Below are positions 5,071-12,564 of a DNA stretch of 33,423 nucleotides, one piece after another. Under the pieces are notes generated by a model, which was not told the DNA's origin, ran no database searches, and saw nothing but the letters and a program-made list of their open reading frames with translations. The stretch covers positions 1 to 33,423 of the forward strand of contig CANJKG010000004.1 in assembly GCA_947474775.1 (NCBI GenBank), given 5' to 3'. The stretch comes from Caulobacteraceae bacterium (lineage in GTDB: Bacteria; Pseudomonadota; Alphaproteobacteria; Caulobacterales; Caulobacteraceae). Position 1 is the first letter of the stretch. Each line of letters opens with the position of its first letter. Both the position numbers and the translations under genes were made by a program.

Positions 5071-5970
5071 ATGAAGGGCGAGAAGATCCTGATCACGGGC
5101 GCGACGGGCCAGGTCGGCCTGCCGGCGGCCCTGGCGCTGGCGAAGACCAACGAGGTCTGGGCGGCGGCGCGCTTCTCCGACCCGGCCACGCGGGTGCGGC
5201 TGACGGAGGGCGGCGTCAAGTGCGTCCAGGTCGATCTCGAGAGCACGGACATGTCGGCGATCCCCACGGACTTCTCGGCGATCGTGAACGGCGCCGTCGC
5301 GCGGACCAACAGGTGGCCGGAGGACCTGGAGGGGAACGTCGGCGGGCTCGGCCGGCTGATGCACCACTGCAAGACCGTGAAGGCGTTCCTGCACGTCTCC
5401 ACCACGGCGGTGTACAAGGAAGTCCCGCACCATCCCTACGTCGAGACCGACTCGCTCGGCGACAACCACGGGGTGATGGCGCATCGCGAGACCTACAGCA
5501 TCGCCAAGATCGCCGCCGAGGCGATGGCGCAGTTCTTCGCCAGGGAGTTCCAGATCCCGACCACCATCGCGCGGCTGAACGTGCCCTATGGCGCCAACGG
5601 CGGCATGCCGAGGCGCCACCTCCTGAACATCCTGGCGGGCGACCCCATACTGGTGCACGTGGACCACCCGAATGTCTTCAACCCCCTGCACGAGCGCGAC
5701 ATCGTGGCCATGATCCCCCGACTGCTGGGGGTGGCCTCGGTCCCGGCGACCATCGTCAACTGGGGCGGCAGCGACCCGGTCAGCCTGGAGGACTATGCGG
5801 CCTTCCTCGGCGACCTGGTGGGGAAGAAGCCGGTGTGGGCGGAGACCGAGAAGATCATCCGCGGCGTGCAGATCGACACCACCCGCATGCACAAGCTGAT
5901 CGGCCCGGCCTCCGTGCCCTGGCAGGACGGGTTTAGGGACATGGTGGCGGCCGTGAAGGTCCCGGCCTAG
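5071..5970 (+). CDS. NAD-dependent epimerase/dehydratase family protein
   Basis: MKGEKILITGATGQVGLPAALALAK (GxxGxxG), YSIAK catalytic-type motif; upstream in-frame M at 5005 is less likely as start. Confidence 0.8.
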   Translation: MKGEKILITGATGQVGLPAALALAKTNEVWAAARFSDPATRVRLTEGGVKCVQVDLESTDMSAIPTDFSAIVNGAVARTNRWPEDLEGNVGGLGRLMHHCKTVKAFLHVSTTAVYKEVPHHPYVETDSLGDNHGVMAHRETYSIAKIAAEAMAQFFAREFQIPTTIARLNVPYGANGGMPRRHLLNILAGDPILVHVDHPNVFNPLHERDIVAMIPRLLGVASVPATIVNWGGSDPVSLEDYAAFLGDLVGKKPVWAETEKIIRGVQIDTTRMHKLIGPASVPWQDGFRDMVAAVKVPA

Positions 5971-5991
5971 CCTATCCCACGCCTCCGACCG

Positions 5992-6006
5992 GAGCGCTTC
6001 GCGCTC
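5992..6006. repeat. REP-like hairpin between convergent genes
   Basis: GAGCGC-TTC-GCGCTC perfect stem in the gap between the epimerase and the convergent ORF at 6032. Confidence 0.4.
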
Positions 6007-6031
6007 TCCAGGATGACAGTTCTGGGCGGGT

Positions 6032-6556
6032 TCAGGCGGAACTTCGCCAGGGCGGGATGGTGAGGCTCGCGACCTCGTCGCCCTCTCCGCCTTGCGGGGG
6101 AAGATGGCGTTTTACGCCGAGGGCCTTGGCGATCCTGGCGATGAGCAGTTCGACGGGCTGGTCGAGGAAGCCGTGGTCGAGCTCGGCCTCGTCTAGGAGG
6201 TTCTCCAGCTCGCCCATGAGCTCGTCGCGTTCGGCTTCGTGCCAGACCAGGCGTTCTATGGGCAGGCTGACGCGCTCCCGGTGTTCGCGGATCCGGGTGC
6301 TGCGGACATGTTCGGCGTGTTCCTCGGCCGCGAGCTCGGCGGCCAGGCGGTCGCGTTCCAGCTTGGCCTCCAGGGCCATGGACTGCCGGGCGGAGCGGGA
6401 GATGCGGTGGAAGGCGGCGGCGACGTCGGCCTTCACCTTGGGGTCGTCAGTGGCCATCGCGGAGGCCTGCAGATCGGCGGCCAGCTCCATGGCCCACTCG
6501 GTCAACCTGGCGAGATCGCGGGCGTGACGTTCGGCCATGGAGAGCGCGTCGGGCAT
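6032..6556 (-). CDS. uncharacterised charged, helical/coiled-coil-like protein; putative SOS-regulated gene
   Basis: ORF 6032..6592; candidate starts ATG 6556 (MPDALSMAERHARDL...) or ATG 6538 (MAERHARDLARLTEW...). Heptad-like charged composition. GTTC-N7-GTTC lies directly upstream. Confidence 0.7.
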   Translation of the reverse strand: MPDALSMAERHARDLARLTEWAMELAADLQASAMATDDPKVKADVAAAFHRISRSARQSMALEAKLERDRLAAELAAEEHAEHVRSTRIREHRERVSLPIERLVWHEAERDELMGELENLLDEAELDHGFLDQPVELLIARIAKALGVKRHLPPQGGEGDEVASLTIPPWRSSA

Positions 6557-6571
6557 GAACAAAACAAGAAC
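6557..6571 (-). promoter_or_regulatory. putative LexA (SOS) box GTTC-TTGTTTT-GTTC
   Basis: Plus strand GAACAAAACAAGAAC; exact match to alphaproteobacterial GTTCN7GTTC, AT-rich spacer, abutting the ATG at 6556; TTGACG lies upstream on the minus strand. Confidence 0.6.
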
Positions 6572-6654
6572 ATATAAAATGCCCGGCGTCAAGCTGAAGT
6601 TGCTGGAGGTGGCCTCGGTCCCGGCGACGCATCAAGCGCAGTCCGAATGACGAT

Positions 6655-6669
6655 GTTCTTTCTTCGTTC
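6655..6669 (+). promoter_or_regulatory. second putative LexA (SOS) box GTTC-TTTCTTC-GTTC
   Basis: Exact GTTCN7GTTC in the same intergenic region, 98 bp from the first box (start to start). Confidence 0.45.
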
Positions 6670-10623: not shown

Positions 10624-12564
10624 TCAGGCGCCGGCGCGGTTCTTGACCAGTTCGTCGACCACCGCCGGATCGGCGAGCGTGGAGGTGTCGCCCAGGTTGG
10701 AAAGATCGTTCTCAGCGATCTTGCGCAGGATGCGGCGCATGATCTTGCCCGAGCGGGTCTTGGGCAGCCCGGGCGCGAACTGCACCACGTCGGGGGCGGC
10801 GAACGGCCCGATCTCGCGGCGCACCCAGCCCTTCAGCTCGGCCTCCAGGATGTCGGTGGGGGTCACGTCGGCCTTCAGGGTGACGAAGCAGTAGATGCCC
10901 TGGCCCTTGATGTCGTGCGGGTAGCCCACGACGGCGGCCTCGGCGACGTTCTCGTTGCCAACCAGGGCGCTCTCGATCTCGGCCGTGCCCAGCCGGTGGC
11001 CGGAGACGTTGATCACGTCGTCCACCCGGCCGGTGATCCAGTAGTAGCCGTCCTCGTCGCGCCGCGCGCCGTCGCCGGTGAAGTACTTGCCGGGATAGGT
11101 CTTGAAGTAGGTGTCGATGAACCGCTGGTGGTCGCCATAGACGGTGCGCATCTGGCCGGGCCAGCTGTCGGTCAGGCACAGGTTGCCGCTCACCGCGCCC
11201 ATGAGCTGGTGGCCCTCCGCATCCACCAGCTGCGGCTTCACCCCCGGCAGCGGTTTGGTGCAGGAGCCGGGCTTCAGGGCCGTGGCCCCCGGCAGCGGGC
11301 TCATCAGGGTGGCCCCGGTTTCGGTCTGCCACCAGGTGTCGACGATGGGGCAGCGGCCCTCGCCGACCACGCGGTGGTACCAGAGCCAGGCCTCCGGATT
11401 GATCGGCTCGCCCACCGATCCCAGCAGGCGCAGGGTCTTGCGCGAGGTGCGCTTCACCGGCTCGTCGCCGTCGCGCATCAGGGCGCGGATGGCCGTGGGC
11501 GCGGTGTAGAAGGTCTGCACGTCGTGCTTGTCGATCACCTCCCAGAAGCGGGAGTTGGTGGGATAGTTGGGCACGCCCTCGAACATCAGGGTGGTGGCCG
11601 CATTGGCCAGCGGGCCGTAGACTACGTAGCTGTGGCCGGTGACCCAGCCCACGTCGGCAGTGCACCAGAAGATCTCGCCAGGCCGGTAGTCGAACACCAG
11701 CTCATGGGTATGGGCGGCCCAGGCCAGGTAGCCGCCGGTGGTGTGCAGCACGCCCTTGGGCTTTCCGGTGGAGCCGGAGGTGTAGAGGATGAACAGCGGG
11801 TCCTCGGCGTTCATCGGCTCGGGGTCGCACTGGTCCGAGACGGTCTTCTTCAGCTCCGAATAGTAGGCGTCGCGGCCGGCCTTCATGGGCACCTCGCCGC
11901 CGGTGCGGCGGACCACGATCACATCGGTGACGCCTGGGCACTCCTTCAGCGCCTCGTCCACATTGAGTTTCAGCGGCACAGTCCTGCCACCACGCAGGCC
12001 CTCGTCGGCGGTGATCACCACCTTGGAGTCGCAATCCTGGATGCGGCCGGCGATGCTGTCGGGCGAGAAGCCGCCGAACACCACCGAATGCACCGCCCCG
12101 ATCCGGGCGCAGGCCAGCATGGAGACCGCCGCCGCCGGGATCATCGGCAGGTAGATGGTCACCCGGTCGCCCTTCCCGACTCCCTTGGCCTTCAGCACAT
12201 TGGCCATCCGGCAGACCTCGGCGTGCAGGTCGCCGTAGGTGAGGATGTCGTAGACCTCCGGGTCGTCGCTTTCCCAGATGATCGCCGTCTCGTTGCGCCG
12301 CGCGGGCAGGTGGCGGTCGATACAGTTGACCGAGACGTTCAGCACCCCGTCGGCGAACCAGCGGATGCGGAAGTCCTCTGCGTCGAAGGAGACGTCCTTC
12401 ACCTCAGTGAACGGGACCATCCAGTCCAGCCGCTGGCCGAGCTCGCGCCAGTAGCCGTCAGGGTCCTCCCCCACGCGCCGGACGGCGGCCTCGTAGCCGG
12501 CAGCGTCCATCCGGGCGCGCCTGGCCCATTGATCGGGAACCGGGAAGATATCGCCGTCCGACAC
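10624..12564 (-). CDS. acs: acetyl-CoA synthetase
   Basis: [26 protein letters not shown]-binding motif, [38 protein letters not shown]; likely GTG start at 12564 ([13 protein letters not shown]). Confidence 0.96.

Follow-up and report, generated by a model that had tools for sequence, protein, structure and literature searches.

A dispersed and probably DNA-damage-induced multi-copy gene family of Phenylobacterium and a few sister genera, including a copy under predicted LexA control

The closest described systems are the two damage regulons of Caulobacter crescentus. The LexA (SOS) regulon of this bacterium is governed through the operator GTTC-N7-GTTC, and about 97% of its SOS promoters carry a single LexA box (PMC12700426). 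DriD is an SOS-independent activator responding to DNA damage, for which the consensus is ATACGAC-N7-GTCGTAT; the didA site reads TACGTCCGTTTCTGGCGCA and the didA promoter contains ATACGTCCGTTTCTGGCGCA, and a cryo-EM study identified a conserved promoter G at -14 (PMC12340889). SidA and DidA are small damage-induced proteins controlled by LexA and DriD, respectively (PMC4211646). Our literature search combining Phenylobacterium with SOS or LexA found no paper.

The window, that is, the whole stretch of 33,423 nucleotides analyzed here, belongs to a fragmented MAG of a Caulobacteraceae bacterium (2.97 Mb, 293 contigs, 82% complete). The exact motif GTTC-N7-GTTC occurs four times in it, three times around one minus-strand ORF and once in acs (Table 1), confirming the counts and coordinates of a preliminary description made by eye; the chance expectation given there, about 0.5 per window, agrees with the 0.44 +/- 0.61 obtained from 100 dinucleotide shuffles of the window (maximum 2). 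On this basis the ORF had been proposed to be a damage-inducible gene of no recognized family under a double LexA promoter. The TTGAC element of the -35 type and the membership of the gene in a multi-copy family had been overlooked.

Table 1. Coordinates of the features discussed in the text, counted from the first letter of the window.
Feature	Position	Strand	Remark
ORF, 174 aa	6032..6556	-	ATG 6556-6554, stop 6034-6032; belongs to a paralogous family not described before
LexA operator GTTCTTGTTTTGTTC (predicted)	6557..6571	-	abuts ATG of ORF 6032-6556
TTGAC, -35-type element	6588..6592	-	16 bp upstream of operator 6557-6571
TGTTC, putative extended -10	6568..6572	-	common to DriD-type promoters (conserved G at -14)
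Second GTTC-N7-GTTC GTTCTTTCTTCGTTC	6655..6669	+	98 bp upstream of ATG, orientation opposite
Third GTTC-N7-GTTC	6019..6033	+	overlaps stop codon of ORF 6032-6556
Fourth GTTC-N7-GTTC	10639-10653	+	within acs reading frame

The host genome contains ten scattered copies of the family, the others sharing 26-40% identity with the window copy. In six of them (the window copy on C4 and those on C85, C179, C32, C251 and C207) an exact box immediately precedes the ATG, and the combined pattern GTTCN7GTTCATG occurs six times genome-wide, each time at a family copy, while the reversed control pattern is absent. The genome-wide scan proposed earlier therefore places every ATG-abutting box of this genome at a member of the family. 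It could be argued that the boxes are chance matches beside an uncharacterized or spurious ORF, and single chance boxes do occur, as GTTC-N7-GTTC alone is found 68 times in the genome and its reversed control 28 times. This reading is scarcely credible, however: it is already refuted by the conservation of the box and its zero spacing over dozens of copies, and these copies form one family under protein-level selection.

The same type of box precedes the canonical SOS genes lexA, ssb, uvrA, uvrB and mmcB of the host genome, and the box of its PA0069-type radical SAM gene is letter for letter that of the window gene, GTTCTTGTTTTGTTC; we therefore take GTTC-N7-GTTC as the probable LexA operator in this genome. 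A further gene (L014), taken by eye for imuA, also has a box; a Pfam scan named no family for it. In C. crescentus the SOS genes ccna_01391 and ccna_02355 carry the box GTTCttgttatGTTC, one base away from the window operator (PMC12700426). It is very improbable that a regulator other than LexA, such as a phage-type repressor, shares GTTC-N7-GTTC and owns these boxes; the operator specificity is deduced from sequence, and one genus described below illustrates that the family can fall under a different operator, but such a regulator would have to explain both the boxes of this type at the SOS and radical SAM genes of the host and the nearly identical one in C. crescentus. A conserved operator overlapping the promoter, the same operator at canonical SOS genes and a lexA gene in the genome place the window gene among the LexA-type genes.

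Among the LexA-type copies, TTGAC lies 16 bp upstream of the operator in 40 of 64 and 17 bp upstream in nine of the 64. Of 65 such copies, 48 have no gap between box and start, and 63 have a distance of 3 or less. The extended -10 at the window copy was placed by the sigma73 promoter geometry in PMC12340889, and the operator is predicted to overlap both this element and the transcription start. Absence of the boxes upstream of orthologues had been named in the preliminary description as grounds for abandoning its proposal. The proximal box passes this comparison; the distal one does not, since none of the other family copies compared has a second box at the position equivalent to 6655. The distal box is real and unlikely to be a chance occurrence, and one other copy (L194) has two overlapping boxes at the gene start, but the term double promoter is unsupported because the distal box recurs in no other family copy. 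The clustering of three boxes at the locus likewise holds as an observation. The third sits in a 3'-flanking repeat, GAACCCGCCCAGAACTGTCATCC, and is probably a chance match and no operator, because similar 3' flanks of other family copies lack the box.

The remaining four host copies (C126, C5, C111 and C271) have no GTTC-N7-GTTC box and share instead a site, CTACGTCCGCTTCTGACGCA / TACGTCCGCTTCTGACGCA, 21-25 bp before the ATG; it matches both the DriD consensus and the didA site. The genome encodes one WYL protein, which matches the solved DriD chain 9pfq with E 7e-138 and is an orthologue of DriD over the full length; a DriD site, TACGTCCGATTCTGTCGCA, lies a short way upstream of where its gene starts. 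When the genome was scanned with a loose DriD pattern, the matches were the four copies, two sites around driD, and otherwise mostly GC-rich, scattered sites. Of 29 DriD-type copies, 28 have G at position 27 of the site (G-14), as do C. crescentus didA and CCNA_03891; after correction by eye of two wrongly assigned starts (L071 and L183), the ATGs fall at site positions 41-45. The sister copies thus combine a site at a fixed distance from the -10 (G-14) with a driD orthologue in the same genome, as expected of the DriD regulon, and it is likely that DriD controls them. Upstream of 6556 the window copy has no DriD site. The LexA control proposed in the preliminary description is thus strongly supported at the sequence level, with the proximal box conserved upstream of most relatives and most of the box-less relatives carrying a DriD site.

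The family was found in 22 of 120 Caulobacteraceae genomes sampled, representing 4 of 22 genera, and in 45 of 101 Phenylobacterium genomes, where copy number runs from 0 to 21; it is dispensable, being absent from the majority of these 101 genomes. Named records with the family are Phenylobacterium, unclassified Caulobacteraceae or Alphaproteobacteria, from which the genus coded g1 was taken to be Phenylobacterium, and no named Caulobacter record was among the matches. A class-wide search placed the family almost only in Caulobacteraceae; it was limited to eight scored candidates in each genome, and two known copies of the host genome escaped it. Our first set of 96 proteins divides into 59 LexA-type, 29 DriD-type and eight copies with neither site, these eight comprising two cut by contig ends, one frame fragment of a box-bearing copy and five from other genera. 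In a second set of 40 loci from five genomes, which partly overlaps the first, all 38 assessable loci have a site (30 LexA, 7 DriD and 1 both; L327 was scored via its duplicate record L146). Essentially every Phenylobacterium copy with upstream sequence is therefore preceded by a LexA box or by a DriD site.

Exceptions occur in two other genera. The copies of genus g5 are LexA-type except one. Those of genus g21 have neither site, and most of them have the palindrome TTGCA-N3-TGCAA between the -35 and the start, so control by damage does not extend to every member of the family. The palindrome occurs at 19 and 16 sites in two g21 genomes (G071 and G077, loci L315-L317, L322, L324 and L367-L399; control 0-1) and also lies upstream of a multi-copy terminase-small-subunit-like family with a weak PF03592 match. 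That family was considered as an explanation of the window and set aside, a search lacking a positive control having found it in none of four Phenylobacterium genomes. Upstream of the PA0069-type radical SAM gene of a g21 genome (L387, about 135-230), TTGCAATCTGCAA occurs together with a LexA box, GTTCTTATTTTGTTC.

The preliminary description had pictured the product as a helical, charged protein of no recognized family, and both points were borne out. The AF2 model of the window protein, built from 28 sequences, is all-helical (mean pLDDT 88, pTM 0.65), with helices at residues 4-35, 39-107, 112-125 and 135-146. The invariant residues in A2 (R54, R57, Q58, A61, L62, A64, R68 and E107) lie mostly along one stretch of the long helix. 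Searches with single members and alignments gave no significant family in Pfam, NCBIfam, PHROGs or PADLOC; a sequence profile search of the PDB gave a best E of 3.4, coiled-coil noise; and Foldseek with the AF2 model returned nothing at E <= 0.001 in PDB or BFVD. Foldseek matches to ferritin-like EncB and to a terminase small subunit were rejected as helical-hairpin resemblance only. Family members are about 200 aa long and soluble-looking, and the hydropathy of the window protein (maximum over 19 residues 1.05) and its helical, soluble-type model set it apart from small membrane-anchored peptides of the SidA/DidA type. Of 96 C-termini, 31 end in SSA and 64 in A or G, and most of those without SSA also finish with a small residue (G, A or P), the window protein ending ...PWRSSA; one may speculate that this small-residue terminus is a protease-recognition signal. 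Ka/Ks between closely related copies ranges from 0.12 to 0.90 and is mostly 0.2-0.5, so the protein is under purifying selection.

The two promoter types have been exchanged repeatedly. On a protein tree of the 96 copies, made by a quick method, the LexA/DriD label needs seven changes, at least five of which are forced by well-supported branches, against a mean of about 24.5 for shuffled labels. The clearest case is in the host genome: downstream of about codon 4, C251 (L069) and C126 (L072) share 94% identity over 485 bp, but the former has a LexA and the latter a DriD promoter. L143, L146 and L177 are nested in a DriD-rich clade and nevertheless have a LexA promoter at the ATG. In these three and in L328, a site resembling that of DriD (CACGTCAAAACCGGACGCA or a similar sequence) was seen by eye farther out than the LexA promoter, possibly reflecting dual control or a remnant of exchange. 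That LexA and DriD promoters have repeatedly replaced each other before one and the same protein implies that its appearance after DNA damage is selected for.

In copies that are 91-97% identical, the shared DNA begins near the promoter and ends near the stop codon, with unrelated flanks, and the homology boundaries vary by pair (-35 to -108 upstream, +3 to +117 downstream). Neither fixed ends nor terminal inverted repeats nor a transposase were seen at the copies when the flanks were read by eye, so the copies would have dispersed by duplication of short segments together with gene conversion, or else as a mobile unit not recognized as such. As separate observations, a 21-bp exact repeat, GGTGGCCTCGGTCCCGGCGAC, at 5730-5750 and 6608-6628 shows that a piece of the neighboring epimerase gene recurs upstream of the window ORF, and intergenic palindromic repeats of the form GTCATCCCGG...CCGGGAC, or hairpins whose arms are of the CACGAACCACACGAA type, often adjoin copies (flanks of L191, L192, L199, L201, L059 and L075; window 5985-6030).

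The restriction of shared DNA to a segment that begins at about -35/-110 and ends at the stop codon or a little past it would suit copies that are mainly self-spreading DNA, in which the unit of promoter and ORF moves and damage induction serves its spread, for example through recombination repair, rather than the cell. The M16 peptidase gene next to the window copy, conserved in 29 other Phenylobacterium genomes and in none of them adjoined by a family copy, and the variable copy number, with several copies at contig ends as is seen for repeats, would suit it too. We nevertheless consider this reading unlikely: the boundaries differ by pair and no mobility features were seen, Ka/Ks is mostly well below 1, phages, plasmids and viral contigs hold no relatives of the family, and gene conversion among long-standing duplicates would leave much the same picture. 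The related idea of a damage-triggered, semi-selfish cassette that spreads within and between genomes, swapping LexA and DriD and living off the damage response, is in our estimate improbable as well. We consider it very likely that the window gene is a LexA-controlled member of a dispersed multi-copy, DNA-damage-induced family of Phenylobacterium and a few sister genera, and the family very probably belongs to the response to broken DNA.

It is proposed that, at the window copy, LexA bound to GTTCTTGTTTTGTTC over the -10 region and the expected transcription start would block RNA polymerase. RecA on single-stranded DNA would then prompt LexA self-cleavage, upon which transcription should start on the ATG or no more than a few bases from it, giving a leaderless or nearly leaderless mRNA for the 174-aa helical protein. 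The leaderless mRNA is predicted because the G at -14 puts the ATG at about +1 to +4 in both promoter types; C. crescentus has 375 leaderless mRNAs that are translated as well as others (PMC4117421). At the sister copies, DriD activated by single-stranded DNA would span the weak -35 and recruit RNA polymerase, as at C. crescentus didA. The effector may be an oligomeric helical protein whose conserved Arg-rich helix face (R54, R57, Q58 and R68) binds a partner, with the possible outcome that division or replication is slowed or DNA is protected, a SidA/DidA-like role for an unrelated protein. We offer this checkpoint or DNA-protection role as a tentative guess, made mainly because C. crescentus uses the same control pair for SidA and DidA.

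SOS genes of unknown function are common; a family with up to about 20 paralogues per genome, each predicted to answer to one of two damage sensors that work by unrelated mechanisms, is unusual, and we did not find such a family in the literature searched. The two sensors are a cleaved repressor (LexA) and an activator switched on by single-stranded DNA (DriD), and several independent switches between them would make it possible to study by comparison how the damage response is shared out between LexA and DriD. Five DriD promoters were aligned in the C. crescentus study; the predicted DriD-type copies would make the regulon much larger than that, and the family points to an uncharacterized damage-response effector.

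Compared with the C. crescentus LexA regulon, the operator, its single occurrence per promoter and the near-identical box sequence agree (PMC12700426); here, in contrast, several paralogues of one gene are involved, the box is fused to the start codon, and the regulated family was found in only 4 of the 22 Caulobacteraceae genera sampled. The DriD regulon (didA, bapE, recJ, dnaG and CCNA_03891) is matched by the DriD-type copies in site and G-14 spacing and by the genome in its DriD orthologue, although the window copy lacks the site and the family is absent from the published DriD targets searched. SidA and DidA resemble this family in being small and in answering to the same pair of regulators, LexA and DriD, as predicted here from the promoters; DidA has a transmembrane helix, whereas the present family is soluble-looking, about 200 aa long and all-helical.
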